Origin: Nostocoides australiense Ben110
GTDB taxonomy: Bacteria; Actinomycetota; Actinomycetes; Actinomycetales; Dermatophilaceae
NCBI RefSeq assembly: GCF_001050535.1
Contig: NZ_HG764815.1
Span: 4,153,196-4,189,453, forward strand
Direction of reading: 5' to 3'
DNA length: 36,258 nucleotides
Below the pieces are notes generated by a model. The model was given only the letters and a program-made list of their open reading frames with translations, was not told the origin of the DNA and ran no database searches. The translations under genes and the position numbers were made by a program. Positions 48 to 32,069 of this stretch are shown here, in pieces. Positions within the stretch are counted from its first letter, which is position 1, and each line of letters begins with the position of its first letter.

Positions 48-1250
48 TCAGTCCTGGGCCGTGCGCAGCACGCTGGCCAGGGCCAAGGCCGAGCAGGTGA
101 GCATGATGGCGGCGGGGACCAGGGCGGAGCCGGCCCCGCCGAGGCCGACGAGCGGCGAGACGACCGCGCCGAAGGCGTGCTGGCTGGTCCCCAGCAGCGC
201 GCTTCCGGTGCCGGCCGAGGACCGGGCTTGCGCCATGACCAGCGCCGCCGTGGGTCCGAGGATGCCGCCCATGGGTGCGATGGCGAAGAAGATGGCGACG
301 GCATACGTCCACACGGGTGCGTGCGTGAGCACCAGCACCACGAAGGCGAGCGTCGCGGCCACCTGCACCAGCACCGACGTCAGGACCACCCGCCGCGGGC
401 CGACGCGATGGACGAGGTGACTGACGGCATACCCGGTGGTGACCATGCCGACGGCGTTGGCGCCGAACGCCATCCCGTAATGGATCTCGCTGAGCCCGAT
501 GATGTTCTGATAGACGAACGGCGAGGCGGCGATGTAGGACATCAAGACCCCGAACGCGCTGACGAAAACCGCGACCTGGCGCCGGTATTCGCTGATTCTG
601 AGCACCTGACCGAAGGCGGTGCGTAGCGGCACTGAGGCACCGTGCCGTCGCTCGGGCGGCAGGCTCTCGCGGATCGCGAGCCGCACCGCCGCGAGACTGA
701 GCGCACCGATGCCGGCGAGCACCCACAGCAGGCCCCGCCAGCCGATCGAGCCGATCATCAGGCTGCCCGCGAAGGGCGCGAGGATCGGGGCGATACCGCC
801 GACTGTCATCATCAGCGTCATGACGCGCGCGGTGTCCCGGCCACTCGTCAGGTCGGTCACGACGGCGCGACCGATGACCAGGCCGCCGGCTCCGGTGAAG
901 CCCTGGACGACACGCGCGAGGATGAGCAGGCCCAGGCTGGGTGCGGCGGCCGCCAGCGCGCCGGCGATGACACAGATCAGTCCGCTGAGAAGCAGCGGAC
1001 GGAGTCGCCCGAAGCGATCCGACAACGGACCCCACACCAGCTGCCCGGCGGACAACCCGAGCATGAACGTCGTCAGCGTCAGTTGCACGCCGCTCGCATC
1101 CGTCCCGAGGTCGCCGACCATGTCAGGGAAGCCGGGCAGATAGAGATCGGTCGCCATCGGGGAGAACGCCGCCAGCATCGCCAGGGTCAGCAACAGGGGG
1201 ATCGCGATGTGGCGGCCGGGGTGATCCTGCGGGGTGTGAGCGTCAGACAC
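48..1250 (-). CDS. MFS transporter, Bcr/CflA drug-resistance type
   Basis: 400 residues with about 12 hydrophobic segments, the usual length for a 12-TM major facilitator. The loop between TM2 and TM3 carries the MFS signature GPLSDRFGRLRPLL, and the N-terminal pattern (ATDLYLPGFP) is typical of the Bcr/CflA (DHA1) subfamily, which exports drugs and small hydrophobic molecules by proton antiport. The GTG start at 1250 has AGGA about 8 nt upstream and overlaps the stop of the rhamnosidase gene by 8 nt, so the two are translationally coupled. By context it may move an aromatic glycoside, aglycone or toxic intermediate across the membrane. The direction of transport cannot be read from sequence. 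Confidence 0.9.
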   Translation of the reverse strand: MSDAHTPQDHPGRHIAIPLLLTLAMLAAFSPMATDLYLPGFPDMVGDLGTDASGVQLTLTTFMLGLSAGQLVWGPLSDRFGRLRPLLLSGLICVIAGALAAAAPSLGLLILARVVQGFTGAGGLVIGRAVVTDLTSGRDTARVMTLMMTVGGIAPILAPFAGSLMIGSIGWRGLLWVLAGIGALSLAAVRLAIRESLPPERRHGASVPLRTAFGQVLRISEYRRQVAVFVSAFGVLMSYIAASPFVYQNIIGLSEIHYGMAFGANAVGMVTTGYAVSHLVHRVGPRRVVLTSVLVQVAATLAFVVLVLTHAPVWTYAVAIFFAIAPMGGILGPTAALVMAQARSSAGTGSALLGTSQHAFGAVVSPLVGLGGAGSALVPAAIMLTCSALALASVLRTAQD

Positions 1251-3885
1251 GGCAGGTCCTGGTATGCCGCCCGGGACCGACGTCCTCCGCCTCACGTCCG
1301 GGGAGGACAAGGTCGGCCCGGCATCCTGCCGGCACGTCGGCGGTGAGTTCGAAATCATTGTCCCGCAACGACCATTCGACCGTATGCCGTCCGTGAGGCG
1401 AATCGTGATGGGCCTGGGCCCAGGTGACTCCGCCACCAGGCCGCGGTTCGATGCGCGAGCGGCGCCACGCCGGCTCGGTCCGCCGCAGGCCCGCGACGTG
1501 GGTGTGCAGGAACCCGATGACGGCGCCCTTGCTGTAGTGGTTGAGCGACGCGTGCGGCATGCCGTCCTCGTCGATGCCTTCCCAACGCTCCCACATCGTG
1601 GTCGCGCCACGGTCGAGCATCGCCAGCCATCCCGGGGCGGCGCGTTGCAGGAGCAGGTCGTATGCCGTGTCGAGGTGCCCGCTGTCGGCGAGAGCGGGCA
1701 GCAGGTCACGGGTGGCAAGGAAGCCCGTGCCGAGCCGGGTGCCGTTGTCGCGGACGAGGCGATCCAATTGCGCGGCAGCGGTTTTGCGCAGGTGATCGGG
1801 CACGAGGCCGAACGTCAGCGCCCGCACGAGGTTGGCCTGCGTGTCGGGCGTGATGGTGCCGTCCGCGCCGACGAACTCCTGCTGCCAGGCGGTGCGGGTT
1901 TTGTCGGCGAGGTCGCGACAGTGCCGCGCGTCCGCCGGTCGGCCCAGCACCTCGGCGATGGCGGCCATGGTCTCGGCTGACCGGACCAGATAGGCGGTGG
2001 CGACGTCGGCCTTGTCCGCGGCGAGGAAGGCGGGGAAGTCGATCTCCTCGCCCGGCACAAGCCATTCTCCCCAATGGAAACCGGTGTCCCACAGCCATGT
2101 CTCGTGATCGAGCGGCGCGGGGGAGCGGGCGACCCGCGACGGGTGACGCCCGGTCGCGGCGCTCGCTGCCGCGAAGGCGAGCCAGCGTTGCATGTTCGGC
2201 CACAACTCGGCGAGGCTTCGCAGGTCGCCGTACTCGGCATACAGTTCCCATGGCACGAGGACGATGGCGTCGCCCCAGCCGGCCGAGCCGTTGAGCTTCT
2301 CCAGGAAGCCCGATCGCTCGGCGGGGGGCATCGGCGCCATATTGCCGACGATGCCGTTATCCCATTGCGCCGCAGCGAGATCGCGCAACCACGACAGGGA
2401 GAAGCCGGCGATGTCGTGGTGGAAGCTGGCCACGGGTGCATAGATCTGCCAGTCACCGGTCCACCCGGCCCGCTCCCTGGTCGGGCAGTCGGTCGGGATG
2501 GAGATGGCGTTGCCACGGAAACTCCGGACGGCGGCGGCGTGCAAGGCGTTGAGGTCGGCGTTGCTGCACGCGAACGACCCGCGCTCGGGCAGGTCCGTAT
2601 GGACGACGACGGCGCGGGCCCGGGCGGCCACCTCCTCCGGCGCGAGATCGTGGCTGACGCCCTCGAGGCGCACGTAGCGGAAGCCGTGGCTGGTCAGGGT
2701 CGGCTCGAAGCTCTCACCCAGTTCCCCGGCGATGGTGACCCGATCGACCATCCCGGCGCGCACCTCGTGCTGGATGAAAGGAATGTCATCGGGCCGCAGG
2801 TGTTCGGTCATCACGTCACCGGCGGCGTCGACGGCCTCCGCGTGGGTCAGCGTGAGCGTGGTGCCGGCCGGGCCGAGTGCCGTGAGGTCGTCCAGGCGCG
2901 TCCATCCGCCGATGTTCTGCCCGAAGTCGAGGACGTAGGTGCCCGGCCGTGGGCGCGTGGCGGCGACTGCGGCGAGTTCGGTGATGCGGCGCACCGGGGG
3001 TGCCGGCGAGGCGGTGAGCGCGGCATACCCGATGTCTTCGCGGACCGTGACCGGCTCCCAGGACGGGGCGTCGAGATCTGTTGCAGTCCAACCCGATTGA
3101 CGGAGCCGGTTGTCCTGCTGCTGACCCTCGATGAGGTCGGCCGCGACGACATGTGACGGCGCCCAGCGCCACGAGGCGCCGGTGCCGGTGACGACCGTCG
3201 AAGCGTCCTCGAACGTCAGGTGAAGTTGCGCGAGGTATGCGGTGCGGTTGCCGAACTGATCGGTCGAGCGCGGCATACCCACCGACCCGCGAAACCAGCC
3301 GTCGGCGAGAAGGACATCGACGGCATTGTCGCCCAGTCGAATCCGAGTGGTGACGTCGATGGTGGACACGTGCAGCCGGGCGGCGTACTCCGTATAGCCA
3401 GGCGCCAGTACCTCGTCGCTCACCGGCTCGCCGTTGAGAAAGGTCTCGTGGATGCCGTGAGCGGTGACATACAGGCGGGCGCGCGCGACCGGCCGGTCCA
3501 CTGTCGTGACACCGCGCAGGCGGTAGGCGGGCCGGAAGCCCGGAGTCTCCGGCTCACGTGGGGTGGGCGACACCCAGGACGCCTGCCAGTCAGCAACATT
3601 CAGCAGCCCGGCTTCGAGGGCGACCGGTTCGCTGAACTCGCTGTCCCCCATATCGGTTCGCACTTGGACCGCGATCTCGTGCTGCTCTCCCGAATGCAAT
3701 GGGTCGAAGGGCCACGGTTGCAGGACGGTGCCGTCGCTCTCGACCCATGGACTCAGTTCGTCGTCGAGACGGAGGCGGTAGGCATGCTGGCGCCCGGCAT
3801 CGGGGGCGGGTAGTTGCCAGGACAGCCGCGGCCGCCGCTCCCCGATCCCGAGGGCGTCGTCGCGATGCTCGACCCGGATGCGCAT
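1243..3885 (-). CDS. Alpha-L-rhamnosidase, glycoside hydrolase family 78
   Basis: 880 residues, the normal length for bacterial GH78 enzymes, which release terminal L-rhamnose from rhamnosides such as flavonoid rutinosides by an inverting mechanism. The N-terminus reads MRIRVEHRDDALGIG, the usual opening of the family. Residues 466-478 (DCPTRERAGWTGD) correspond to the catalytic loop with the acid residues, followed by GWGDA at 536-540 and HWGEWL at 604-609, also conserved in the family. There is no signal peptide or membrane helix, so it acts in the cytoplasm and its substrate must be imported whole. ATG at 3885 was chosen because it gives the family N-terminus; longer in-frame extensions look non-coding. 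It lies between the LysR gene at 3981-4964 and the MFS gene on the same strand. Confidence 0.93.
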   Translation of the reverse strand: MRIRVEHRDDALGIGERRPRLSWQLPAPDAGRQHAYRLRLDDELSPWVESDGTVLQPWPFDPLHSGEQHEIAVQVRTDMGDSEFSEPVALEAGLLNVADWQASWVSPTPREPETPGFRPAYRLRGVTTVDRPVARARLYVTAHGIHETFLNGEPVSDEVLAPGYTEYAARLHVSTIDVTTRIRLGDNAVDVLLADGWFRGSVGMPRSTDQFGNRTAYLAQLHLTFEDASTVVTGTGASWRWAPSHVVAADLIEGQQQDNRLRQSGWTATDLDAPSWEPVTVREDIGYAALTASPAPPVRRITELAAVAATRPRPGTYVLDFGQNIGGWTRLDDLTALGPAGTTLTLTHAEAVDAAGDVMTEHLRPDDIPFIQHEVRAGMVDRVTIAGELGESFEPTLTSHGFRYVRLEGVSHDLAPEEVAARARAVVVHTDLPERGSFACSNADLNALHAAAVRSFRGNAISIPTDCPTRERAGWTGDWQIYAPVASFHHDIAGFSLSWLRDLAAAQWDNGIVGNMAPMPPAERSGFLEKLNGSAGWGDAIVLVPWELYAEYGDLRSLAELWPNMQRWLAFAAASAATGRHPSRVARSPAPLDHETWLWDTGFHWGEWLVPGEEIDFPAFLAADKADVATAYLVRSAETMAAIAEVLGRPADARHCRDLADKTRTAWQQEFVGADGTITPDTQANLVRALTFGLVPDHLRKTAAAQLDRLVRDNGTRLGTGFLATRDLLPALADSGHLDTAYDLLLQRAAPGWLAMLDRGATTMWERWEGIDEDGMPHASLNHYSKGAVIGFLHTHVAGLRRTEPAWRRSRIEPRPGGGVTWAQAHHDSPHGRHTVEWSLRDNDFELTADVPAGCRADLVLPGREAEDVGPGRHTRTCRV

Positions 3886-4964: not shown

Positions 4965-4981
4965 CGTAGGGTTGTCGGTGT

Positions 4982-5000: not shown

Positions 5001-5033
5001 CGATTGTCGACGGCGACGGAGGTCGAAGGTCAG

Positions 5034-8903: not shown

Positions 8904-10034
8904 TCAGGCCGGCTCGCAGAGGGCGTGCAGCGTCTGCCCCATGACTCGGCCGGGGTCGGCGCCGGGCGTGTCGGGGTGCATCTCCCACTCGGCGAGCTGC
9001 AGAGAGTTGTCGAGCACCATCTTCACGCGCGGGAATCGTCGCGCCATGAAGGAGTCGAGGGCACCCTGCAGGTCATCGGTCTTGGTCAGTTCATCCGCGA
9101 GGACGACGGCATCCTCGGCACACATGGCGGCACCTTGCGCGATCAGTGGAGGGCAGGCGTGGGCAGCGTCGCCGATGACGATGGTGCGCCCGCGGTGCCA
9201 GGGGTCCTCGACGCAGATCGTCTCGATCCACTGATAATTCACGACCGCATCGTCGGGCAGGGCGTCGCGGATCTTGCCCCACGTGCCGCCATACCCCTGC
9301 CCGTGCTCCTTCATCACGTGCCCGTTGGGCTTCTCGCCGACGAACTCGCGGTCGAGATTCTCCTCGAGGAGGAAGGCGTAGCAGTAGTCCTCGGAGATCG
9401 GGGTGTAGCCGGCCTTGAACTTCGGCCCGCCGTAGTAGAGCTCCGAGCAGTCCATCTCCGGCGGTCGCGGCGCGACGACCCGCCAGATTCCCATTCCGAC
9501 CGGGCGGACCTCGGCGTCGATGCCGATCATCTCCCGGGTCTTGCTGCGAATGCCGTCGGCACCGATCACGAGGTCGACGGTCTCGGTGGAGCCGTCCGAC
9601 AAGGTGACCGTCGCCGCGTCGGCGTGGTCCTCGATCGCGGTGACCGACGTGCCGAGTCGCACGTCGACGCCGGCGTCAACGACGGCGTTGCGCAGGATCG
9701 TCGCGAGGTCGGAGCGCATCGCGCCGGCCGTGCCCGGCAGGTCGGGGCCACCCATGGGCGGGGTGGGGATCTCCATGATCAGGTCGCCATTGGCGGCCCG
9801 CATCCGCAGGCCACCGAACGGGAAACCCTTCGCCAAGACCTGGTCTATGACACCGACCTCCTTGAAGGCCTTGAGGGCGTTGCCCTGGATCGTCAGCCCG
9901 TGCCCGATGGCCGTCAGATCGTCCTGGCGCTCGACGAGGACTACATCGATGCCCTTCTGCGTCAACGCAAGCGAGACCATCGTCCCGGTGACGCCACCTC
10001 CGATGACGAGAACCTTCGACACTGCGGCGCTCAT
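8904..10034 (-). CDS. FAD-dependent aromatic monooxygenase (group A)
   Basis: 376 residues of the PHBH-like FAD_binding_3 family, single-component NAD(P)H-dependent hydroxylases of phenolic rings. The Rossmann motif is VIGGGVTGTM at the N-terminus, the second FAD motif is VIGADGIRS, and GDAAHACPP near residue 285 is the pyrophosphate-binding motif. The ATG at 10034 was preferred because GGAAGGAA lies just upstream; the 14 extra residues from an upstream start look non-coding. It is the first gene of the minus-strand operon and is divergent from the ABM-FAH-ALDH operon. In flavonoid pathways (for example FdeE of Herbaspirillum) this enzyme type hydroxylates the A ring before ring cleavage, which is the role suggested here by context only. 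Confidence 0.9.
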   Translation of the reverse strand: MSAAVSKVLVIGGGVTGTMVSLALTQKGIDVVLVERQDDLTAIGHGLTIQGNALKAFKEVGVIDQVLAKGFPFGGLRMRAANGDLIMEIPTPPMGGPDLPGTAGAMRSDLATILRNAVVDAGVDVRLGTSVTAIEDHADAATVTLSDGSTETVDLVIGADGIRSKTREMIGIDAEVRPVGMGIWRVVAPRPPEMDCSELYYGGPKFKAGYTPISEDYCYAFLLEENLDREFVGEKPNGHVMKEHGQGYGGTWGKIRDALPDDAVVNYQWIETICVEDPWHRGRTIVIGDAAHACPPLIAQGAAMCAEDAVVLADELTKTDDLQGALDSFMARRFPRVKMVLDNSLQLAEWEMHPDTPGADPGRVMGQTLHALCEPA

Positions 10035-10536: not shown

Positions 10537-11517
10537 ATGCGCCTGGCTCGTTATCGGCTGCGCTCCGATGCACCGGACGCTTCCTCCGTCGGGCTGGTGA
10601 TCGGCGGCAACGGGTCGTGGACCGTGCATCCGTTCGCCGACGGCAGTGACCTGATCTCGTTGCTGGCGTTGGAATTCGAGGCGCGGGAGGAGCTGGCCGA
10701 TGCGGCTGCCGCCGGGGAGGGGTATGCCGCCGCCGACGTCGTCCTGCTGCCGCCGGTCTATCCCGTGGCGATGCGCGACTTCCTCACCTTCGAGGCGCAC
10801 GTCGACGGGATGGAGAAGGGCCACGGCAACCCCGGGGCCCCCGATGAGTGGTATGACGCCCCAGTCTTCCTCTTCATGGCTCCGCACGCTGTGTGCGGCG
10901 CGTTCGACGAGATCGCGTATCCGCCGGACACCGAGCGGCTCGACTTCGAGCTGGAGATCGCGGCGATCGTCTGCAAGGACGCCCGCAATGTCACGCCGGA
11001 GGAGGCCAAGGGCGTCATCGGCGGCTACTGCGTGATGAACGACTGGTCCGCGCGCGACGTACAGGGCAAGGAGATGAAGCTCAAGCTCGGGCCCTCGAAG
11101 GGCAAGGACTTCGCGACGACGATCGGGCCGTGGGTTGTCACGGCGGACGAGCTCGAAAGCCACCGGGACGCCGATGGCTTCCTCGACCTCGGCATGAGCG
11201 TCAGCGTCAACGACGAGGTGGTCGGCTCCGACCGGTCCGCCAACATGGGCTGGTCCTTCGAGCAGCTCGTCTCGCATGCCTCGCGGGCGTCCTGGGTCAA
11301 GGCCGGCGAGGTGTTGGCGTCCGGCACCTGTGCCTCGGGTTCGCTCGCCGAGTCCTGGGGTCGCACCGGCCGGCTGACCCCGCCGCCATTGCAGGTCGGC
11401 GACGTCGTGTCGATGACCATCGAGCACCTCGGCACGATCAGCAATCGCATCGTCGCCTCTAATGAGGTTGTCCCGCAGACAGTTCCGGCGCGCCGCCGAG
11501 TGCCGGAAGGAGTCTGA
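10537..11517 (+). CDS. Fumarylacetoacetate hydrolase (FAH) family protein 1
   Basis: 326 residues. The C-terminal FAH domain shows the metal-binding residues in DFELEIAAIV (two Glu) and NDWSARD (Asp), plus a catalytic-type His in FLTFEAHV. The family hydrolyses C-C bonds in diketo acids or hydrates/decarboxylates ring-cleavage products, with Mg2+ or Mn2+. It closely resembles the second FAH protein at 18891-19847, both sharing GPWVVTADELE-like and HRDADGFL segments. It is located between an ABM protein and an aldehyde dehydrogenase. Its likely job is to split an acyl side chain from a ring-cleavage product, by analogy with FdeD-type enzymes. Confidence 0.9.
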   Translation: MRLARYRLRSDAPDASSVGLVIGGNGSWTVHPFADGSDLISLLALEFEAREELADAAAAGEGYAAADVVLLPPVYPVAMRDFLTFEAHVDGMEKGHGNPGAPDEWYDAPVFLFMAPHAVCGAFDEIAYPPDTERLDFELEIAAIVCKDARNVTPEEAKGVIGGYCVMNDWSARDVQGKEMKLKLGPSKGKDFATTIGPWVVTADELESHRDADGFLDLGMSVSVNDEVVGSDRSANMGWSFEQLVSHASRASWVKAGEVLASGTCASGSLAESWGRTGRLTPPPLQVGDVVSMTIEHLGTISNRIVASNEVVPQTVPARRRVPEGV

Positions 11518-14242: not shown

Positions 14243-14258
14243 ATACGGTAGACCGTAT
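14243..14258. promoter_or_regulatory. Palindromic operator at the antitoxin start codon
   Basis: The arms ATACGG and CCGTAT are separated by TAGA, and the right arm overlaps the ATG of the antitoxin. A further TACGGG copy lies upstream. Antitoxins of this type commonly repress their own operon through such a dyad. The assignment rests on symmetry and position. Confidence 0.55.
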
Positions 14259-17137: not shown

Positions 17138-18088
17138 ATGTCCAGCCACTTGAACGAGCACGGAATCACCCATCTGCGGCACGTGGACCTGGCGGTGCCG
17201 GACTACGAGACCCAGCGCACCTTCTACAAGGACACCTGGGGGCTGACGGAGGTCGGCACCGATGGCAACCTCTCCTACCTCGCCGCCGAGGGTTCGCCCG
17301 AGCAGTATGTGGTGCGCCTCCGCCGGGACGCCGAGAAGCGCCTCGACCTGATCTCCTTCGGCGCCGAGAGCCGTGCGGCGGTCGACGCGCTGGCGGCGCA
17401 TCTCGGGAGCCAGGGGGTGCAGCTGATCGGGGAGCCCGGCGACCTGCAGACGATGGGCGGCGGCTACGGCATTCGCTTCTTCGACATCGATGGCCGCACG
17501 ATCGAGGTCTCCGCCGATGTGGCGACCCGCGAGCACCGGAAAATCGAAGAGGGAGAAGCAATTCCGGTTCGCATCTCGCACGCCGTCATGAACTCCAATA
17601 ACCTCGCGGCCACCAAGGAGTTCTACACCGACGTCCTCGGATTCAAGCTCTCCGACAGCCTGTGGAGCGCGCACATGGGCGACATGATGCATTTCCTTCG
17701 CGTCAACGACTGGCACCACAGCCTGGCGATCGCCACCGGCCCGCATCCGTCGGTGCACCACGTCTCCTTCGAGATGCGCGGCCTCGACGAATACATGCGC
17801 GGCACCGGACGGGTGATGCGCGCCGGCATCAAGAAGGTCTGGGGCCCCGGTCGTCACCTCGCCGGCAACAACACCTTCTCCTACTTCATCGACCCCAGCG
17901 GCAACACCATGGAATACACCACAGAGCTCGAAAAGATCGACGAGGACCAGTGGCATCCGAGTGTCTATGACATCGCCGACCCGATGACCCAGGACCAGTG
18001 GGGCACGGCCGACCCGATGAGCGAGATCATCGCCAAGGAATCCTTCAACGACCCCGACCGCGGCCTCTTCGTCGCGCCGCCGGTCTGA
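17138..18088 (+). CDS. Type I extradiol ring-cleavage dioxygenase (catechol 2,3-dioxygenase-like)
   Basis: 316 residues with two VOC modules, as in BphC-type enzymes. The Fe(II) ligands in the second module are H148 (ISHAV), H208 (SVHHVSF) and E259 (NTMEYTT), and H193/H194 and Y249 occupy the places of catalytic His and Tyr. All are present, so it should be active in meta-cleavage of a catechol or hydroxyquinol with O2. The ATG at 17138 follows GAGGAAG. The stop overlaps the SDR start (TGATG). With the FAD monooxygenase upstream and an FAH hydrolase downstream, it forms a hydroxylate-cleave-hydrolyse unit like that reported for naringenin A-ring cleavage by FdeC. Confidence 0.92.
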   Translation: MSSHLNEHGITHLRHVDLAVPDYETQRTFYKDTWGLTEVGTDGNLSYLAAEGSPEQYVVRLRRDAEKRLDLISFGAESRAAVDALAAHLGSQGVQLIGEPGDLQTMGGGYGIRFFDIDGRTIEVSADVATREHRKIEEGEAIPVRISHAVMNSNNLAATKEFYTDVLGFKLSDSLWSAHMGDMMHFLRVNDWHHSLAIATGPHPSVHHVSFEMRGLDEYMRGTGRVMRAGIKKVWGPGRHLAGNNTFSYFIDPSGNTMEYTTELEKIDEDQWHPSVYDIADPMTQDQWGTADPMSEIIAKESFNDPDRGLFVAPPV

Positions 18089-18894
18089 TGACGACCGGCG
18101 GGCGCTGCGCCGGCAAGATCGTCGTCGTCACCGGCGGCGCGCGCGGGCAGGGTGCCGCCGAAGTGGAAGACCTTGCCCGAGAAGGTGCTTCGGTGTATGC
18201 CGTCGACCTCCTCGACGAGGAGGGTCGCGCGCTCGCGGATCGGCTGACCGAAGAGGGGTATGACGTCGCCTACGGCCACCTGGACGTCACCGATCCAGCC
18301 GATTGGGAGGCGTTGGCGGCCGAGCTGTCGGCGCGTCATGGGCGAGTCGATGCGTTGATCAACAACGCCGGCGTGGCTTCGCGTGGACGCTTGCCGTATG
18401 TCGATCTGGACGTGTGGCACCGCACCTTCGAGATCAATGTCACCGGGCCGTTGCTCGGGATCCAGGCACTCGTGTCGTTGATGACGCAGGGCGGGTCGAT
18501 CGTCAACATCTGCTCGGTCGCCGCGATCTCCGGACATGTGGCCGCGCCCTACACGGCCTCGAAATGGGCCCTGCGCGGGCTCACGCGCACCGCGTCGTTA
18601 GAGTTAGGCCCCAAGGGAATCCGCGTCAACGCAGTCATGCCCGGTCTCATCGAGACGCCACTGATGGAAAGCGCCTCGCCGGAATTCCGTGGCGCGGCCC
18701 TACGGGAGATTCCGCTCGGACGCACCGGTGAGGTCGGCGACATTGCCCCGCTCATCGTGCATCTCGTCTCCGACGAATCGCGCTACACCACAGGCGCCGA
18801 GATCGTCGTCGACGGCGGTATGTCCGCACACGTCTCGCACAAGGGGGTCGCCGACGCCATCGCGCCCGCTGCCCCGCCCGAGGCGGCATCGTGA
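18088..18894 (+). CDS. Short-chain dehydrogenase/reductase
   Basis: 268 residues. Motifs are TGGARGQG for the cofactor, NNAG for the central strand, S in ICSVAAISG and the intact catalytic pair in YTASK. The C-terminus has MPGLIETPL and TGAEIVVDGG. It starts inside the stop of the dioxygenase and ends inside the start of FAH 2 (GTGA), so all three are translated together. It would oxidise or reduce a hydroxyl/keto group on the aromatic substrate or ring-opened product. Confidence 0.92.
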   Translation: MTTGGRCAGKIVVVTGGARGQGAAEVEDLAREGASVYAVDLLDEEGRALADRLTEEGYDVAYGHLDVTDPADWEALAAELSARHGRVDALINNAGVASRGRLPYVDLDVWHRTFEINVTGPLLGIQALVSLMTQGGSIVNICSVAAISGHVAAPYTASKWALRGLTRTASLELGPKGIRVNAVMPGLIETPLMESASPEFRGAALREIPLGRTGEVGDIAPLIVHLVSDESRYTTGAEIVVDGGMSAHVSHKGVADAIAPAAPPEAAS

Positions 18895-19847
18895 AGTTCG
18901 GAACCGTTCGGTTCGCCGATGGCGTGCAGGGTGGCGTCGTCGTCGGTGCCGACGGACAATCCGTTCACCCGCTGGGTCGCGATCTGGAGTCAGTCATCCT
19001 CGCAGCGGATACGCTCGAGGCCGTGCTGCGCGTCGGCGCGGCCGCGAGCGAGCGCCCGGCCACTCCACTGTCCGACGTGACGGTGCGAAAACCGTTCACC
19101 CCTGCGGCGATTCGCGACTTCGTTGCCTTCGAAGAACACGTGGTGGGCGTCCGCAAGAGCGTCGACGGCAGCAGCGGAGTCCCCGAGCAGTGGTATGCCG
19201 CACCCACGTTCTACTTCACCAACCCGCACGCCATCTATGGCCCGGACGAGCCCATCGCCCGGCCGGATCTGTGCCGGGCCCTCGACTTCGAGTTGGAGGT
19301 CGCGGCCGTCATCGGACGGCAGTGCCGTTCGGTCGATGAGGCACAGGCGCGCGACGCGATCATCGGCTACACGATCTTCAACGACTGGTCGGCGCGCGAC
19401 CTCCAATCCGCCGAGATGAAGGTCGGACTCGGCCCCGCCAAGGGCAAGGATTTCGCGAGCTCTCTCGGCCCCTGGCTGGTGACCGCCGACGAACTCGAGA
19501 ACCACCGCGACGCCGACGGATTCCTCGAACTCGACTGCAGTGTCAGCGTCAATGGTGTTGAGGTGGGCCACGATTCACTCGCCAGCATGGGGTGGACCTT
19601 CGAGACGATGGTCGCCTACGCCTCGCGCGACTCGATCGTCAAACCGCTCGACATCCTCGCCTCTGGCACCACCGGTGGCGGCGGCTGCCTAGCGGAACTC
19701 TGGGGCCGGGGCGGCTCGCAGCACCCGCCATCGCTGCAACCCGGCGACCTTGTGACCATCACCGTCGACGGGCTGGGCACGCTGTCCACCCCGATCGTCG
19801 CGGGCACTCCCACTCCCGAACTGACACCCTTCCGCCGGCGTTCCTGA
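18891..19847 (+). CDS. Fumarylacetoacetate hydrolase (FAH) family protein 2
   Basis: 318 residues, GTG start overlapping the SDR stop. The metal site is seen in DFELEVAAVI and NDWSARD, and FVAFEEHV carries the His region. It is a clear paralogue of the FAH protein at 10537-11517, sharing LGPxKGKDFA, VTADELE and HRDADGFLEL along most of the length. It probably hydrolyses or decarboxylates the meta-cleavage product of the dioxygenase encoded two genes upstream. It converges on a GNAT gene with only 17 bp between the stops. Confidence 0.9.
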   Translation: MKFGTVRFADGVQGGVVVGADGQSVHPLGRDLESVILAADTLEAVLRVGAAASERPATPLSDVTVRKPFTPAAIRDFVAFEEHVVGVRKSVDGSSGVPEQWYAAPTFYFTNPHAIYGPDEPIARPDLCRALDFELEVAAVIGRQCRSVDEAQARDAIIGYTIFNDWSARDLQSAEMKVGLGPAKGKDFASSLGPWLVTADELENHRDADGFLELDCSVSVNGVEVGHDSLASMGWTFETMVAYASRDSIVKPLDILASGTTGGGGCLAELWGRGGSQHPPSLQPGDLVTITVDGLGTLSTPIVAGTPTPELTPFRRRS

Positions 19848-20874: not shown

Positions 20875-21263
20875 CGGACAATCTCACCCTCGAGGATGTG
20901 CTCGAGATTGCCGAGGGTGTCGTCGGCGAGGTCGCCGTGCGCGACATCGGGCTACTCGAATCCGCGTGTCATCGTCCCCGCGCGACCGCTTTCGGAGCCG
21001 ACGCCTATCCAACCCTCTGCGAGAAAGCAGCTGCCCTCCTGCATTCCCTCGCCCCGAATCACCCGTTGACTGAAGGCAACACGCGTCTCGCGTGGGCAGG
21101 CGCTCGGGTCTTCCTCTTGTTGAATTCGTGCGACGTCGGCTACGCATCCGTGGACGAGGTCGAGGGCTTCGTGCTCGCGGTGGCCAGAGGCGAACTCGAG
21201 GTCCCCGAGATCGCCGCCTGGATCGAACACCATCTGACGCTGGACGAGAGCGGGCAGCAATGA
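20871..21263 (+). CDS. doc: Doc-type (Fic fold) toxin
   Basis: 130 residues with the Doc motif H64-PLTEG-N70-T-R72, close to the Fic/Doc consensus HxFxxGNxR. Doc toxins phosphorylate elongation factor Tu and stop translation. The helical surround ([12 protein letters not shown] and [14 protein letters not shown]) fits the family. It is coupled to the upstream antitoxin, and its stop overlaps the alcohol dehydrogenase start (ATGA), so the toxin-antitoxin pair is transcriptionally joined to a catabolic gene, which is unusual. Confidence 0.85.
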
Positions 21264-22382: not shown

Positions 22383-23537
22383 TTGTTCGAATACTTCACC
22401 GGCCCCAAGTACATCTGGAACATGGGCGTCAGCGCGACCCTGAACTCCGGTGGTCAGATCTTCGAGGTCGACAAGGCGTCGCGGCCGGCGAGGGAGGCGG
22501 CGGACGTCGATTCGGGCGCCCCGCTGTTCCTCCAGGGCTGGAAAGCCGTGGCGGACGATCTGGCCGAGCAGGCCAAGGAGGCCGAAGCGGCCGGGCACCT
22601 GCGCACCGCCGGGCAGAAGTGGTTCCGCTCGGGCGTCTATGTGTGCCAGGCCGAGCGGATGCTCAGCGAGTCCATGCCCGAACGGCGCGCCTTCTATCAG
22701 CAGGCGCTCGATGCGATGCAGAAGACTTTCGACCTGATCGATCCCAATACGAGCCGAGTCGAGGTGCCCTTCGAAGGCGACTCTCTGCCAGCGTATTTCA
22801 CGAAGGCCGTCGGGACCGACGGCCTGGCGCCGACGGTGGTCATGTGGAACGGCTTGGACTCCACGAAGGAGCACATGTACACCTCCGGGTGGCCGTCAGA
22901 GATGTCGCAGCGTGGTTACAACGTGCTGCAGGTCGACTGTCCCGGCTCCGGCGAGGCGCTGCGCTTCCGGGGCCTGAAGGCCCGCATCAGCACCGAGGAC
23001 TGGGCCAAGGCCTGCGTGGACTATCTCGAGGGCCGCGACGATGTCGACACCGGCCGGATCGGCTTGGTCGGCTGGTCACTCGGCGGCTACTACGTCCCGC
23101 GTGCCGCGGCCTTCGAGAAGCGCCTGGCGTATGCCGTCGCCTGGGGCGCCAACCACAACTGGGGCGAGGTGCAGCGCGGCCGTCTCGAGCGCGAGGGCGA
23201 GAACCCGGTGCCCCACTACTGGGAGCACGTGCTGTGGGTGTGGGGCTTCGAGGGCAAGACGCCGCAGGAGTTCGTCGAGTTCGCCGACGACGTCCACCTC
23301 AATGGCATCGTCGAGAAGATCACCTGCCCCTTCCTGATCGCCCACGGCGAGGGTGACCGGCAGATCAACGTCAAGTACGCCCACCAGTCATACGACCAGG
23401 CCGTCAACTCACCCAAGCGCACCCTGCGCCTCTTCACGGCCGAAGAGGGCGCGACAGAGCACATCGGCCTCGATCACCTCTCCCACGTCGGCAACTACAT
23501 CTCGGATTGGATCGACGACACCCTCGCCGGCACGTAG
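22383..23537 (+). CDS. Alpha/beta hydrolase, 2,6-dihydroxypseudooxynicotine hydrolase-like
   Basis: 384 residues. An N-terminal helical part (about residues 1-120) precedes the hydrolase core. The nucleophile is S232 in GWSLGGY, the acid is probably D325 in HGEGDRQI, and a His around 360-365 (EHIGLDH) completes the triad. The oxyanion region may involve WNGLDSTKE. The architecture fits 2,6-dihydroxypseudooxynicotine hydrolase, which breaks a C-C bond next to a ring-attached ketone. The TTG at 22383 is preceded by AGGAGAG, the only good site nearby. In this island it may cut a chalcone- or acyl-phenol-like C-C bond; that is an inference. Confidence 0.85.
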
Positions 23538-24126: not shown

Positions 24127-24768
24127 GTGGCAACGACGTAGACCCTGCCTGGGTCGTGTGGTGCGTGGCCGGAGGCGGGCAGGGCCTGCAGCGGCTTCCT
24201 GCTCGATGCCGACGGATTCCGCGTTGTCATCGACCTCGGCTATGGCACTGCCTGTCGGCTCTTTCACGCGCTGGGCTCGACGTCCGGCGACGGGTTGGAT
24301 GCTGTCGTCATCACGCACAGACATCCCGACCACATGGTGGATCTGCATGCCTTGTTTCGTGCCCGGTGGTTCGCTTCTCGGAACTCCCCGCCGTTGCCGG
24401 TCTATGCAGCCGTCGGGGTGCGCGAGCGGCTGGTGTCGATGGACGAGCCTGACGACGGCGCCGATGTGGACCGCATCTTCGCGTTCAACCCACTGCCGGG
24501 CAACTACACGGTCGGCCCCTTGACCCTCTCTGCGCTCGATTTGCCGGACCAGGTGCCGAATTCAGGTGTGCGCATCGCCTTCCGCGATCTCACCATCGCC
24601 TACACCGGCGATGCCGGCCCGTCGGAGGCACTGGCGGAGTTGGCAGCAGGGGTCGACCTCCTGCTGGCCGAGGCGAGCGACCGCGAGGCAACACGCGCCG
24701 CCGCCGCCGCGCTCTTCGCCGGACCCATTGCGCTCGCCGAGGAGGGCATGGTCATCTCGCTTGGCTAG
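24127..24768 (+). pseudogene. Decayed metallo-beta-lactamase-fold hydrolase
   Basis: The reading frame gives TLPGSCGAWPEAGRACSGFL, then VVIDLGYGT and the metal motif THRHPDH, and later IAYTGDAGPSEALAELAAG, all typical of an MBL-fold family of about 250 residues. However, the only nearby in-frame start (GTG at 24127) is followed by a TAG at 24139-24141, and no usable start occurs before 24295, past half of the N-terminal domain. In addition, after LLLAEAS the frame jumps to DREATRAAAAALFAGPI, missing about 40 residues that normally carry the SARxAG and LTHxxP segment with a metal-ligand His. Two independent lesions argue that this is a pseudogene. Confidence 0.75.
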
Positions 24769-24859: not shown

Positions 24860-26425
24860 ATGCGGACTTTCCCTGACGGCTTCCTCTTCGGTGTCTCAAC
24901 GGCAGGCCATCAGATCGAGGGCAACAACACCACGAGCGACACGTGGTTCCTCGAGCAGCAACAGCCGAGCGTCTTCACCAAGCCGAGCGGGCCGGCCTGC
25001 AACAGCTTCGAGCTGTGGGAGAGCGATCTGGACCTGGTTGCCTCGTTCGGCCTGAACGCCTATCGATTCTCCGTCGAGTGGGCCCGTGTCGAGCCGGAGG
25101 AGGGGCGTTTCGACGACGCGGCAATCGACCACTACGAAGCGATCGTCGACGGGTGCCTAGCCCGCGGGTTGAAGCCCGTCGTCACGCTCAACCACTTCAC
25201 CTCACCGCACTGGTTCGCCTGCCGAGCCGGCTGGCTCGATCCCGAGGCGCCCGAGCTGTTCGCCCGCTACGTCGCCAAGGTGATCGACCGCTTTGGTGAC
25301 CGGCTCGCCTTCGTCATCACCTTCAACGAGCCCGACCTGCCGGCGATGCTGCAGTGGGCCAACCTGCCGCCGGTCGTCGCCGAGTTGGAACGAGCCACCC
25401 TGGACGCGGCGTCGGCGTCCGCCGGCGTCCAACGCTATCGCGCGGCGAATGTCGTTCTCCCCGAGGACATGGACGCGATCGCGGACGGTATGACGGCCGG
25501 TCACCGCGCCGCGAAGGCGATCGTCAAAGACCGCTACCCCGAACTGCCCGTAGGGTTTTCGCTCGCGATGGTGGACGACGTCGTCGTCGGCGACGACCCG
25601 AGCGTGCGCGATCGGAAACGCGCCGAAGTCTATGGCCGCTGGCTCAAGCTGGCTCGCGAGGACGACTTCCTCGGAGTCCAGAACTACGAGCGACTGACGT
25701 ATGACGGCAATGGGCTGGTCCTGCCTGAGGGAGCTGCGTCCGGTGCGTTGTACGGCGGCAGCGAGCCCCGGTCTCTCGCGGAGTGCGTGAAGTACGCGAA
25801 CTCCGTTGCGGGAGTGCCTATCCTGGTCACCGAGCACGGAATGGAAGGCCAGGATGACGCCAAGCGGGTCGCGTTCAACGAGGACTCCCTTCTGCATCTG
25901 CTCGACGTGATCGACTCGGGCGTTGCGGTTCTCGGCTACTTGCACTGGACCCTCCTCGACAACTTCGAGTGGATCTTCGGGTACGAGAAGACGCTCGGGC
26001 TGGTCGCCGTTGACCGGGAGACGTTCGCGCGGACGCCCAAGCCGAGCGCGGCCGCGCTTGCCGCGATCGCGACCGGTCGCGGCGTCCCCGATCCCGTCAC
26101 CTCCGAGGCCCTCGTCGCGACCGATCGACCCGGTCGCTACGGCAAGCAACTCGCGTCCCACTTGAGCAAACGCGTTGCGTCGCAATGGGATGACGAGACC
26201 GGAACGGGTTCGCTCGTCTTCGGCCACGGTGGCCGGGCCGACCTGGCCGCGGTCGACGGCGGCTTGCGCTTCGAGCTCGTCGCGCGGCCGGCCAGCGTGG
26301 CCCGGCTCGAGGATGTCATCGGCCGCCACCTCGTGCGTTTCGGCGCGCGCGACGAACTCGCCGTCGCCTGGACCCGATCCGACGGCACTGCGGGCACCAC
26401 CCAACGCAACTCCGAAGACGACTGA
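24860..26425 (+). CDS. GH1 beta-glucosidase with a C-terminal DUF2218 domain
   Basis: 521 residues. Residues 1 to about 405 are a GH1 barrel with the acid/base E157 in TFNEP and the nucleophile E325 in VTEHGM (more often TENG), plus LHWTLLDNFEW near 361-371. GH1 enzymes release beta-linked glucose from phenolic glycosides. From about 416 to 508 the sequence (RYGKQLASHLSKRV, FELVARPASVARLEDVIGRH, RFGARDELAVAW) matches DUF2218, normally a free-standing protein of about 100 residues of unknown function. The reading frame is continuous between the two parts. No signal peptide is present, so the protein is cytoplasmic. With the rhamnosidase at 1243 it could complete deglycosylation of a rhamnoglucoside. 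Confidence 0.88.
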   Translation: MRTFPDGFLFGVSTAGHQIEGNNTTSDTWFLEQQQPSVFTKPSGPACNSFELWESDLDLVASFGLNAYRFSVEWARVEPEEGRFDDAAIDHYEAIVDGCLARGLKPVVTLNHFTSPHWFACRAGWLDPEAPELFARYVAKVIDRFGDRLAFVITFNEPDLPAMLQWANLPPVVAELERATLDAASASAGVQRYRAANVVLPEDMDAIADGMTAGHRAAKAIVKDRYPELPVGFSLAMVDDVVVGDDPSVRDRKRAEVYGRWLKLAREDDFLGVQNYERLTYDGNGLVLPEGAASGALYGGSEPRSLAECVKYANSVAGVPILVTEHGMEGQDDAKRVAFNEDSLLHLLDVIDSGVAVLGYLHWTLLDNFEWIFGYEKTLGLVAVDRETFARTPKPSAAALAAIATGRGVPDPVTSEALVATDRPGRYGKQLASHLSKRVASQWDDETGTGSLVFGHGGRADLAAVDGGLRFELVARPASVARLEDVIGRHLVRFGARDELAVAWTRSDGTAGTTQRNSEDD

Positions 26426-26481: not shown

Positions 26482-27021
26482 ATGGCTGCTGGAGATCGCC
26501 CCCGCCGGGTCGTCACCGGGCATACCCCCGACGGCGTGTCGGTCGTCGTGTCCGACGGCCCGGTGCCGGTCAGCCGCGCGCTGCCCGACGACGGCGTCTT
26601 CTTCCACGAGATCTGGAACACTCAGGACGCGCCGGCGCCGGTGCGGGCCGTCGAGCCGGTCGAACCGACCGAGGCCGACCTCACCGTCCCGCCGCCGCCG
26701 CGCGGCACGAAGATCCGGATCAACGAGTTCCTCCCCGGCCACCTCGACGAGCGAGGCCTGCAGTCTCCGGTGCACCGGACCCAGTCGATCGACTACGGCA
26801 TCGTTCTCGAAGGCGAGATCACCCTGATCCTCGACGACTCGGAAGTGACGCTGAGCGCCGGCGATATCGTCGTCCAGCGCGGCACGGACCACGCCTGGGC
26901 CAACCGATCGGACGGCATCACCAAGGTCGCCTTCATCCTCGTCGACGGTCAGTTCGATCCCGTTCTCGCCGAGTCCATCGGTGGCCTGGACGGTCTCATG
27001 CACGGCGGCCCCCGCGATTAG
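26482..27021 (+). CDS. Cupin-domain protein with altered metal ligands
   Basis: 179 residues. The C-terminal half is a single cupin barrel (SIDYGIVLEGEITLILDD, then LSAGDIVVQRGTDHAWANRS). Motif 1 has one His (PVHRTQ) where the canonical HxH would give two and an Asp instead of Glu, while motif 2 keeps its His and Asn. Metal binding is therefore uncertain. AAGGAACC lies just before the ATG. Proteins of this type are often found beside aromatic catabolic genes. It is too short for a bicupin quercetinase, but a role in handling an intermediate or sensing a ligand is possible. Confidence 0.8.
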   Translation: MAAGDRPRRVVTGHTPDGVSVVVSDGPVPVSRALPDDGVFFHEIWNTQDAPAPVRAVEPVEPTEADLTVPPPPRGTKIRINEFLPGHLDERGLQSPVHRTQSIDYGIVLEGEITLILDDSEVTLSAGDIVVQRGTDHAWANRSDGITKVAFILVDGQFDPVLAESIGGLDGLMHGGPRD

Positions 27022-29067: not shown

Positions 29068-30438
29068 TCACTCCTTCGCCGCAGCGGCAGCCGACGGCTT
29101 GTTGTTGAGGATCAGGTGTCCCACAGCAGTATTGGACGCAGGCACATGGTAGAAGCGGTGGACGACCTCGATCTCGCCGTCGCCCTCGACGTCGGACATG
29201 GCGCCGCGGGCGATGAACCACATCACGAGCTCGATGCCCTCGGAGCCGGCCTCCTCGACATACTCCAGGTGCGGCACGTGCGAGAGACCCTCGGGGTCCT
29301 CGATGAGCCGGTCGAGGAAGGCGTTGTCCCACTCGCGGTTGATGAGACCGGCGCGCGGGCCCTGCAGTTGGTGACTCATGCCGCCGGTGCCCCAGATCTG
29401 CACCTTGATCGGCTTCTCGTAGGACTCGATGGCCTTGCGCAGCGCCTTGCCGAGCTTGAAACAACGCTCACCGGACGGCACCGGATACTGAACCACGTTG
29501 ACGTGGAAAGGAATCACCTTCACCGGCCACGTGTCGACCTGGCCGAACATCAGCGACATCGGCACGGTCAGGCCGTGGTCGACCTCCATCTCGTTGACGA
29601 GCGTGAGGTCGAAGTCGTCACGGATCAGCGAGTGGGCCACGTGCGCGGCGAAGTCCGGGTCACCCTCGATGCCCGGCACCGGGCGCGGGCCGTAGCCCTC
29701 GTCGGCCGCGGGGTAGGCAGCGCCGGTGCCGAGGACGAAGGTCGGGATCAGCGACAGGTCGAACGCGGTTGCGTGGTCGTTGTAGACGAGGAAGACGACG
29801 TCCGGGAGGTTGTCCTGCTCCCAGGCCTTGGAGAACTCATAGCCGTCGAAAACGGCCTTCCAGTAAGGCTCTTCGGTCTTGCCGAGGTCGAGTGCGGCGC
29901 CGATCGCCGGCACGTGCGAGGTGAACACGGCGCCGGTGATCGTCGCATTGCCCACGCTGTCGTCGGCCGCGGCGTTGGCGCGCACGGCGTCGAGCATCGG
30001 GTCCTGCTCCTGGGCAGCCGCAATCTCTGCCTCGGTGCGCTCGACCTCCGGGACGGCGACGTCGGCGATCCGGTTGCCCGCGATGGAGCGCCCACCGCCG
30101 ACCATCATGTCGCGGTATTCCTGTTCGGTCATGCCGGTCATGGAGCCGGCCATCTGCTGGAACGACAGGCCCAAGGTGGCGCCGAACTTCGCCAGGAAGT
30201 AGATATTGCCGCCCTCGCGCATCGCTGCGTTCAGGTCGCGGTCGCGCAGCGCCTGCTTCTGCGCGTCCGTCAGCGGCCACTCGTCCATGTAGGCGTCCTC
30301 GTCGGCGAGGAACCGCTCCCGGTTCTCCGCCTTCATCAGCGACATACAGAACTGGTTGAGGTGGTAGCCCTTGGCCGACTGCTCCGAGTCGAAGATCGTC
30401 GTGCCTGGGACCTTGCGATACTCCTTGTCCAGAGCCAT
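29068..30438 (-). CDS. ligAB: Protocatechuate 4,5-dioxygenase, alpha and beta subunits fused
   Basis: 456 residues. Residues 1 to about 125 are the small LigA-type subunit (SAKGYHLNQFCMSL, LREGG-like MREGGNIYF, MTGMTEQEYRDMM). A linker of about 40 residues follows, then the LigB-type catalytic subunit (about 165-456). Fe(II) ligands are H175 (TSHVP), H222 (YNDHATAF) and E403 (SEGIELVMW), and the catalytic His is H356 (GTGGMSHQL). The enzyme opens protocatechuate between C4 and C5 with O2. In Sphingobium the two subunits are separate genes; here they form one chain. It sits 3 nt behind ligI. Confidence 0.93.
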   Translation of the reverse strand: MALDKEYRKVPGTTIFDSEQSAKGYHLNQFCMSLMKAENRERFLADEDAYMDEWPLTDAQKQALRDRDLNAAMREGGNIYFLAKFGATLGLSFQQMAGSMTGMTEQEYRDMMVGGGRSIAGNRIADVAVPEVERTEAEIAAAQEQDPMLDAVRANAAADDSVGNATITGAVFTSHVPAIGAALDLGKTEEPYWKAVFDGYEFSKAWEQDNLPDVVFLVYNDHATAFDLSLIPTFVLGTGAAYPAADEGYGPRPVPGIEGDPDFAAHVAHSLIRDDFDLTLVNEMEVDHGLTVPMSLMFGQVDTWPVKVIPFHVNVVQYPVPSGERCFKLGKALRKAIESYEKPIKVQIWGTGGMSHQLQGPRAGLINREWDNAFLDRLIEDPEGLSHVPHLEYVEEAGSEGIELVMWFIARGAMSDVEGDGEIEVVHRFYHVPASNTAVGHLILNNKPSAAAAAKE

Positions 30439-30441
30439 GGT

Positions 30442-31374
30442 TCAGCCTTCCTCGGGCCAGTAGAGGCGCATCGGGTTGTCGACGAGGAGCTTGCGCTGGG
30501 ACTCCTCGGCGGTGGCGATCGAGGGGATCCAATCGACGAGCAGCCCGTCGTCGGGCATGTGGTCTTTCAGATTAGGGTGCGGCCAGTCGGTGCCCCACAA
30601 CACGCGGTCGGGGAATTCCTCGACGACCCGCTTGGCGAAGGGCACGACGTCACGGTATGCCGCCTGCTCGCCCCCGAGTGCCCGCGGGCCGGTCGTGGTG
30701 AGCCGCTCGGGGCAGGTGACCTTGCACCAGATGTCGTCGCGGGCGCGCATCAGGTCGAGGAAGCCGGTGAACTCCGGACCGTCGACGTCCTTGGTGACGT
30801 CGGGACGGCCCATGTGGTCGACGACGAGCGGCACGGGCAGGCCGAGGAAGAAGTCGGCGAGTCCGGGCAACTCCTGGGACTCGAAATAGATGACGATGTG
30901 CCAGCCGAGCGGGCCGATCTGATCGGCGACCTGCCGCAGCCCGTCCATCGGCAGGACGTCGACCAGTCGCTTGACGAAGTTGAAGCGGACACCGCGGACG
31001 CCGGCGTCGTGCAGGCGTTGCAGTTCGTCCTCCGACACCCCGGGGCGCACCGTCGCGACCCCGCGGGCCTTGCCCCCCGACGACTGGACCGCGTCGACCA
31101 TCGCGCTGTTGTCGGCGCCGTGGCAGGTGGCCTGCACGATGACGTTACGGGCGAAGCCGAGGTGGTCGCGCAGCGCATACAGCTGCTCCTTGGAGGCATC
31201 GCACGGGGTGTATTTGCGTTCCGGCGCAAAGGGAAACTCCTCCCCTGGGCCGAACACGTGACAGTGCGCGTCGACGGCGCCCGCCGGCAGCCGGAAGCGG
31301 GGAATGGACGGGCCGGCATACCAATCAAGCCAGCCCGGGGTCTTCTCGAACTCGGTCTTCTGGGGCGTGCTCAC
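30442..31374 (-). CDS. ligI: 2-pyrone-4,6-dicarboxylate hydrolase
   Basis: 310 residues of the amidohydrolase superfamily. The HxH region is DAHCHVFGPG at 35-44, later VVDHMGRPD and the catalytic Asp in LWGTDWPHPN. LigI opens the pyrone ring of 2-pyrone-4,6-dicarboxylate to 4-oxalomesaconate. The GTG at 31374 is preferred to an ATG 9 nt upstream, since AAGGA lies 9 nt before the GTG but directly touches the ATG. The GTG overlaps the ligK stop as GTGA. Confidence 0.92.
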   Translation of the reverse strand: MSTPQKTEFEKTPGWLDWYAGPSIPRFRLPAGAVDAHCHVFGPGEEFPFAPERKYTPCDASKEQLYALRDHLGFARNVIVQATCHGADNSAMVDAVQSSGGKARGVATVRPGVSEDELQRLHDAGVRGVRFNFVKRLVDVLPMDGLRQVADQIGPLGWHIVIYFESQELPGLADFFLGLPVPLVVDHMGRPDVTKDVDGPEFTGFLDLMRARDDIWCKVTCPERLTTTGPRALGGEQAAYRDVVPFAKRVVEEFPDRVLWGTDWPHPNLKDHMPDDGLLVDWIPSIATAEESQRKLLVDNPMRLYWPEEG

Positions 31375-32069
31375 GCGGGCCATTCCTTGTAAATCAGTCC
31401 GGCTTTTTCCAGCGGTTCGCGCATGTTGTAGAGGTCCAACCCGAGCACGCCCTCACGGAACTTCGCCCGCTTGCTCGCCTCCTTGTCCTCGCGCGTCTTG
31501 GCGGCCGCGGCGATCTCCGCCGCCCGGTCGCGGGGAACCACGACGACGCCGTCGACGTCGGCGACGACGACGTCGCCGGGGTTGACGATCGCGTTGGCGC
31601 AGACGATCGGGATATTGACCGATCCCAGCGTCGCCTTGACCGTGCCCTTGGAATTGATCGCGCGTGAGAAGACGGGGAAGTTCATCTTCTCCAGGTCAGC
31701 GACATCGCGCACGCCGCCGTCGATGATCAGGCCGCCGCACTCGCGGGCCCGCAGGCTTGAGGCGAGCAGTTCGCCGAAGAACCCGTCCTCCGATTCCGTC
31801 GTGCACGCGGCGACCAGGACGTCGCCAGGGCCGACCTGCTCGGTCGCGACGTGGAACATCCAGTTGTCGCCCGGCTGCAGCAGCACGGTCACCGCAGGCC
31901 CACAGATCCGCGCGCCGGGGAAGGCGGGGCGGATATAGGGGCGCATCAGGCCGGTGCGGCCCATTGCCTCGTGGATCGTGGCCACGCCGAAGGCGGACAA
32001 CGCCTCGACGGCGGCCGCATCGGGACGGGGCGTGCCGGTGTAGACCACACCGAGTTCGTTTGGATTCAC
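31371..32069 (-). CDS. ligK: 4-carboxy-4-hydroxy-2-oxoadipate aldolase / oxaloacetate decarboxylase
   Basis: 232 residues of the RraA-like class II aldolase family. Conserved segments are GRTGLMRPYIRPAFPGARICG, IIDGGVRDVADLE (with the RD metal/substrate motif) and GDVVVADVDGVVVVPRD. It splits the last pathway intermediate into pyruvate and oxaloacetate. The GTG start at 32069 has AAGGAA 7 nt upstream. It is the first gene of the lig operon; the promoter region with a 15-bp palindrome lies just upstream. Reversal of the usual pathway order (last enzyme first) is noteworthy but not rare. Confidence 0.9.
   Translation of the reverse strand: MNPNELGVVYTGTPRPDAAAVEALSAFGVATIHEAMGRTGLMRPYIRPAFPGARICGPAVTVLLQPGDNWMFHVATEQVGPGDVLVAACTTESEDGFFGELLASSLRARECGGLIIDGGVRDVADLEKMNFPVFSRAINSKGTVKATLGSVNIPIVCANAIVNPGDVVVADVDGVVVVPRDRAAEIAAAAKTREDKEASKRAKFREGVLGLDLYNMREPLEKAGLIYKEWPA

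Follow-up and report, generated by a model that had tools for sequence, protein, structure and literature searches.

An in-frame fusion of a GH1 glycosidase and a DUF2218 domain in a predicted flavonoid-glycoside gene cluster of Nostocoides australiense Ben110

The window analysed here, a stretch of 36,258 nucleotides from Nostocoides australiense Ben110, contains an open reading frame on the plus strand (24860-26425, ATG start, 521 aa) in which a GH1 glycosidase appears to be joined to a DUF2218 domain. This raises the question of whether the two parts form one protein, and of what a DUF2218 domain could be doing on a glycosidase. A sequence-only reading of the window had proposed the fusion and supposed that it may point to a DUF2218 function linked to glycosides or phenolic chelators. 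By Pfam, the GH1 part matches Glyco_hydro_1 (PF00232) in two stretches (E 1.4e-54, 185.7 bits, cut-off 22.6). In addition, the C-terminal part, where that reading had placed the second domain, matches DUF2218 (PF09981) at residues 417-504 (E 2.2e-20, 73.3 bits, cut-off 29.1), and the match spans positions 2-87 of the 88 in the profile. The parts of the gene are as follows.

24860..26071, plus strand: GH1 glycosidase barrel, residues 1-404 (Glyco_hydro_1 1.4e-54; E157 and E325 near-invariant in 35 rows)
26072..26107, plus strand: linker of the fusion protein, without an in-frame start codon (codon inspection)
26108..26371, plus strand: DUF2218 domain, residues 417-504 (PF09981 2.2e-20; AF2 model with PA4090, 2jpi, as best PDB match)
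26372..26425, plus strand: C-terminal tail and stop codon of the fusion protein (low-pLDDT tail in the model)

The reading frame has no internal stop, and the genome is assembled as one contig. The codon-usage score is positive for frame 1 and negative for frames 2 and 3 in each of 18 sliding windows, which together reach from residue 1 to about residue 510. Third-codon-position GC is 0.85 for the GH1 part and 0.83 for both the linker and the DUF2218 part. In-frame ATG, GTG and TTG codons were looked for in codons 395-434 and none was found; therefore, DUF2218 is translated together with the GH1 part. The continuous coding signal and the lack of a nearby start codon led us to reject a frameshift or missing-stop artefact at the junction. 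The GH1-DUF2218 fusion is thus real, as had been proposed, and represents a new architecture of known domains. A second DUF2218 was not found by a search of the host genome, the completeness of which is rated 89.8%.

The GH1 glutamates E157 (in TFNEP) and E325 (in TEHG) are present and nearly invariant in the 35-row alignment, and from general knowledge of GH1 enzymes we take E157 as the likely acid/base and E325 as the likely nucleophile. The whole barrel and the catalytic glutamates are common to the window protein and GH1 beta-glucosidases (best PDB match 4r27), from which it differs by the additional C-terminal DUF2218 and by the motif TEHG; every NCBIfam GH1 model that it matches scores under its cut-off. 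The DUF2218 signature, which consists of T, RY, QL and H followed by H-L-x-R-F and W, is intact in the fusion protein (T421, R426, Y427, Q430, H434, H490, R493, F494 and W504). Among 102 DUF2218 rows, W504 is conserved in 102, H434 in 98, Y427 in 94 and H490 in 92. The domain resembles the PF09981 members PA4090, MllG and VCA0233 in its near-full profile match and in having the same predicted fold as 2jpi. In contrast to the DUF2218 members in print, which belong to siderophore or metallophore loci or are simply listed, that of the window is joined to a glycosidase.

The genes surrounding the fusion include the following.

1243..3885, minus strand: alpha-L-rhamnosidase (Bac_rhamnosid6H 6.1e-96)
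8904..10034, minus strand: FAD monooxygenase with an inferred FdeE-like role (FAD_binding_3 4.5e-34)
10537..11517, plus strand: FAH-family hydrolase (FAA_hydrolase 2.4e-49)
17138..18088, plus strand: VOC-type extradiol dioxygenase with an inferred FdeC-like role (Glyoxalase 3.5e-23; scores under the cut-offs of NCBIfam HpaD and catechol_2_3)
18891..19847, plus strand: FAH-family hydrolase (FAA_hydrolase 1.5e-54)
22383..23537, plus strand: alpha/beta hydrolase, relative of 2,6-dihydroxypseudooxynicotine hydrolase, a C-C hydrolase (2jbw 3.7e-20)
24142..24768, plus strand: MBL-fold hydrolase upstream of GH1-DUF2218 (Lactamase_B_2 3.6e-11 for 24295-24768; frame open from 24142, start unsure)
26482..27021, plus strand: cupin protein downstream of GH1-DUF2218 (Cupin_2 5.5e-11)
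29068..30438, minus strand: LigAB, a protocatechuate 4,5-dioxygenase that combines the alpha and beta parts in a single protein (LigA, LigB; 1b4u 2.5e-112)
30442..31383, minus strand: 2-pyrone-4,6-dicarboxylate hydrolase, LigI-like (PDB match only, 4d8l 8.2e-107)
31371..32069, minus strand: 4-carboxy-4-hydroxy-2-oxoadipate aldolase, LigK (TIGR02798 386.9 bits, cut-off 304.5; 3noj 1.3e-70)

The LigAB protein scores 204.4 bits with TIGR02792 LigA (cut-off 108.6) and 739.2 bits with the LigAB fusion model, under its cut-off of 837. Dehydrogenases, more than one FAD monooxygenase, a GFO/IDH/MocA protein and a second Amidohydro_2 protein are also encoded in the window, in which no NCBIfam LigC or LigJ model was matched. 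The gene set described in the available text of PMC11069340 for the fde and ifc flavonoid A-ring-cleavage clusters shares with the window an FAD monooxygenase, a glyoxalase-type dioxygenase, a DHPONH-like C-C hydrolase relative and a cupin. The window differs from these clusters, to which it is likened by described gene set, in the addition of the rhamnosidase, GH1-DUF2218 and LigAB-LigI-LigK, the last of which, genes of protocatechuate 4,5-cleavage, adjoin the flavonoid-type gene set. On the basis of this gene set, the substrate may be a flavonoid rutinoside or glucoside. Between 1243 and 33772, the rhamnosidase, GH1, fde/ifc-like and protocatechuate 4,5-cleavage genes might make up a complete predicted route for a flavonoid rutinoside. 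Meanwhile, two toxin-antitoxin-like pairs lie within the cluster, one of a VapB-like protein (just under the cut-off) and a PIN domain (14257-14924) and the other of a ribbon-helix-helix and a Fic/DOC protein (20683-21263). The LysR regulator (3981-5900, minus strand) is a 639-residue open reading frame in which domains match only from residue 338, the first half having no Pfam match at the threshold used, and its start may be wrong. A WD40 repeat protein (35515-36258, minus strand) runs past the window end.

The same cluster occurs in relatives. In a locus of the same family (L032), it contains a barrel-only GH1 (57% identical) and a separate DUF2218 gene of 90 residues 2.1 kb away. Humibacillus xanthopallidus (L081/L100) has the same two domains in the same cluster, with a GH1 66% identical to that of the window; however, the domain order is reversed, DUF2218 being joined to the GH1 N-terminus, and the DUF2218 is of another lineage. 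DUF2218 is therefore found in one cluster type as a separate gene, as a C-terminal fusion (window) and as an N-terminal fusion (Humibacillus). In a tree of 102 rows (without L179, without L254, which gave no match, and with L081 standing for the identical L100), the two fused DUF2218 domains fall into two different well-supported clades, and a single clade for both was rejected by the AU test (p 0.00024), for which the GH1 pair had been labelled before the tree was built, the test itself being run after the tree was seen. As a single clade is rejected, GH1 has captured DUF2218 at least twice, and these two independent captures took place in one cluster type. Both GH1 barrels lie inside one group of nine rows on the GH1 tree. 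Seven clusters have a VOC dioxygenase that shares at least 79% identity with that of the window (window, L032, L081/L100, L093, L097, L105 and L192). Three of them carry DUF2218, all of one family; the other four have no DUF2218 in the stretch examined, which counts against a catechol role. In addition, DUF2218 was not found in 10 loci around VOC-dioxygenase relatives (L192-L201; G097, 37% identity, left out).

Among the genomes searched, the GH1-then-DUF2218 order was seen in the window only, and the Humibacillus fusion has the opposite order. Among 58 genomes searched, the order occurs in the host genome alone, and it is absent from the family's other 28 DUF2218 loci and from the examined parts of the best 80 of 275 GH1 relatives. 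These 275 were collected by two peptide patterns, and the best 80 were examined with a DUF2218 profile built without L066; DUF2218 lay within the examined flanks of one. One GH1 relative (L109, JACEFY010000017.1) is labelled Stenotrophomonas maltophilia P13. This record is probably mislabelled, since its GH1 groups with Microbacterium and the search of its genome's class gave matches at coordinates identical to those in actinobacterial genomes (G1070 as G872, G1018 as G064).

DUF2218 is present in 29 of 186 genomes of the window's family, in 28 of 296 genomes of its presumed class, in 17 of 190 genomes of Alphaproteobacteria, the class to which the Sphingomonas locus L120 belongs, and in 10 of 396 genomes of the phylum (eight over the cut-off; the family set shares two of the 10). 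The survey covered 89 loci, namely 29 of the family, six of the phylum (weak matches G820 and G926 left out), 29 of the class and 25 of the 26 alphaproteobacterial ones. At least 13 of them encode fusions with a named domain, and besides GH1 there are seven other kinds of partner.

GH1: window, L081
IclR: L069
GNAT, at either end: L070, L210
ABC ATPase, beside FecCD genes: L066
Ldh_2: L187
PF01596 O-methyltransferase: L203 and L223 by Pfam, L207 and L217 by local profile only
Another methyltransferase: L226
Siderophore-interacting protein (SIP): L253

Long DUF2218 proteins without a named partner occur in L086, L212, L219, L228 and L230, and no gene is called over the domain in L084, L188, L189, L191, L214, L237 and L245. 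On Agrobacterium plasmids the O-methyltransferase-DUF2218 fusion recurs, once beside a tannase and PadR. The many unrelated partners suggest that DUF2218 is a module with its own ligand. A tie to glycosides as such was rejected in view of the single DUF2218 among the best 80 of 275 GH1 relatives. DUF2218 is not a glycoside module, and the earlier idea of a function linked to glycosides was not borne out, GH1 being one of eight partner kinds.

If not glycosides, the neighbouring genes may indicate what the domain meets. In Phaeobacter and Ruegeria, DUF2218 follows hpaE-hpaD-FAH-hpaH of the homoprotocatechuate (hpa) operon, and in Paracoccus, Labrenzia and Pannonibacter it occurs with siderophore receptors or transporters. 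In Leisingera it lies with AMP-binding, DUF6005 and sugar-phosphate isomerase genes, which we take to resemble those of petrobactin synthesis. The gene order in L189 is LigA-LigB-DUF2218, DUF2218 overlaps a LigB-family gene in L078, a LigAB cluster is near it in L083, and GNAT-DUF2218 follows LigAB-GFO-AKR in L070. LigB (class III catechol dioxygenases) is found within 10 kb of DUF2218 in three of 34 genomes other than that of the window (expected 0.23, P 0.0017; the count leaves aside G075, whose LigAB fragment sits at a contig edge). FecCD is found within the same distance in nine of 34; that six of these nine are from one genus counts against a catechol role. The examples from the six genera Phaeobacter to Leisingera belong to 14 plasmid regions that were picked for their diversity among 40 and 36 records with a match; 10 of the 14 have a tested marker within 7 kb (none in L172, L178, L179 and L182).

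A controlled count by local profiles within a 7-kb radius compared 88 DUF2218 loci, related ones among them not being independent, with 60 arbitrarily placed regions of the same genome set; the 88 include neither the window nor L254 nor any of the 14 plasmid loci. At least one marker was found in 46 of the 88 loci and four of the 60 controls (p 1.8e-9). PadR accounts for 17 loci and no control (p 1e-4), and iron markers for 16 loci and two controls (p 0.009). Differences were not significant for LigB (4/88 vs 0/60, p 0.15), O-methyltransferase (5/88 vs 1/60, p 0.4), FAH (3/88 vs 0/60, p 0.27), VOC (2/88 vs 0/60, p 0.51) and FMO (3/88 vs 1/60, p 0.65). The LigB result counts against a catechol role, as do the 42 loci in which no tested marker lies within the 7-kb radius. 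Some local profiles were built from DUF2218 neighbours, and without the profile-source loci PadR is found in 17 of 81, iron markers in 14 of 81 (p 0.014) and LigB in none of 81. PadR and DUF2218 form a recurrent adjacent pair in 17 loci (among L204, L205, L209 and L232-L256), the midpoints lying within 536 bases in 17 of 17; the PadR marker was not found in the 29 loci of the window's family. In pooled neighbour scans, FecCD was matched by eight of 122 proteins (122 of 131 neighbours) and PadR by three of 98 (98 of 195 neighbours), the PadR scan leaving out most neighbours named by local profiles, including alphaproteobacterial PadR genes. PadR, siderophore and catechol genes are thus a recurrent context of DUF2218. 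The link to phenolic chelators, the other half of the earlier suggestion, is supported by this context (hpa operons, LigB-type dioxygenases, tannase, siderophore loci, and the PF01596 and SIP fusions), whereas the glycoside half is not.

Judging from their gene numbers, PA4090 and PA4091 presumably adjoin, and 4-hydroxyphenylacetate 3-monooxygenase makes a catechol. PA4091 is the gene of this monooxygenase according to the available text of PMC5655620. MllG is placed in the methylolanthanin and rhodopetrobactin loci, with regulation or transport suggested from the gene neighbourhood (PMC11317620, available part), and a DUF2218 gene is simply listed in the accessible part of PMC2848557. In the iurV mutant of PMC7600106, as far as its available text goes, VCA0233 is raised (log2 change 5.66) and comes directly after vctA in the list, vctA being the enterobactin receptor gene and showing the strongest increase of all (8.68). 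A tested function of DUF2218 was not found in the available portions of the literature, also under PF09981, COG3553, VCA0233, PA4090 and mllG. In addition, no published beta-glucosidase fusion with a domain of unknown function in a flavonoid or catechol gene cluster was found.

Overall, our confidence is a little short of even that the window protein is a two-function enzyme of a flavonoid-glycoside cluster in which DUF2218 binds a catechol-type product or its ferric complex. The fusion protein would be cytosolic, its GH1 part removing glucose from an imported phenolic glucoside and its DUF2218 part acting as a free-standing module for the catechol-type (ortho-dihydroxy or hydroxy-keto) product or the ferric complex; a ligand so held would be kept from iron stripping and from oxidation before ring cleavage. 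DUF2218 is predicted to bind catechols with the conserved His/Tyr/Gln/Arg/Trp set as the site, and the ligands that it would handle in the window are probably released aglycones. More broadly, and with confidence somewhat further short of even, we propose DUF2218 as a portable catechol-handling domain, predicted to recognise ortho-dihydroxyphenyl ligands or their ferric complexes, which bacteria would join to any enzyme, transporter or regulator that encounters one of these ligands; it would link the use of catecholate siderophores with the catabolism of aromatics and flavonoids. If so, the domain would act in the GH1 fusion on plant aglycones that have just been released, and one small domain would connect siderophore uptake, catechol catabolism and the breakdown of plant flavonoid glycosides. 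The fusions name concrete candidate ligands for DUF2218, a domain with a solved structure.

Several other explanations were weighed against catechol binding. DUF2218 might serve iron, either taking it from ferric-siderophore or ferric-phenolate complexes or supplying or protecting the Fe(II) of extradiol dioxygenases. This is unlikely yet has to be reckoned with, in view of the neighbours or partners of DUF2218, namely FecCD, a substrate-binding protein, a TonB receptor, SIP and an ABC ATPase, and of the position of VCA0233 directly behind vctA in the list of raised genes of the iurV mutant (PMC7600106, available text). However, the PadR-DUF2218 pairs are mostly without iron markers in 7 kb, and the domain is also fused to O-methyltransferase, GNAT, IclR and GH1. 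To our knowledge, these four do not use iron. The PadR pairs (17 of 88 loci against none of 60 controls, all midpoints within 536 bases), together with the IclR fusion, would fit a ligand-sensing partner of PadR-type regulators that elsewhere serves as a sensor or effector-removal module, but this explanation is hardly probable at all, given the absence of the PadR marker from 29 of 29 loci of the window's family and the fusions of DUF2218 to enzymes.

It is also unlikely that the fusion is neutral, an operon neighbour having been joined through loss of a stop codon while the parts do unrelated jobs. Such an origin agrees with the many unrelated partners, with standalone DUF2218 genes that overlap or abut their neighbours in several loci, and with the confinement of the GH1-then-DUF2218 order to the window among the genomes searched, but not with the retention of signature residues and coding signal, nor with two GH1 captures at opposite ends, of two DUF2218 lineages, in the same cluster type. 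Those two captures are what could speak for a carbohydrate- or glycoside-binding module, or an assembly module, of the GH1 enzyme; with the other named partners unrelated to sugars and 79 of the best 80 of 275 GH1 loci having no DUF2218 in the examined flanks, we consider this very improbable.

Structural comparison was also made for the DUF2218 part of the window protein. No DUF2218 relative was found in the viral contigs searched, and the AF2 model of the domain was therefore predicted from two sequences only (pLDDT 83.9). In the full-length model, the placement of DUF2218 relative to the active site is unreadable because its block means of pLDDT are about 52-69. A fold search with the domain model gave no functional hint beyond 2jpi. 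The best match is the PA4090 structure solved by NMR, 2jpi, with a Foldseek E of 9e-5 and a Z of 11.4 (rmsd 2.5, 95 residues); the DUF2218 profile also finds this structure, at 1.5e-24. The fold is similar to common ones, among them the spermine synthase N-terminal domain (Z 10.2) and TBP (about Z 8-9), and gives no pointer to catechol binding, which counts against a catechol role. Four DUF2218 proteins of 205-224 residues (L179, L219, L228 and L230) match the 88-position profile over 106-115 residues, indicating an insertion, and carry an unnamed C-terminal part.
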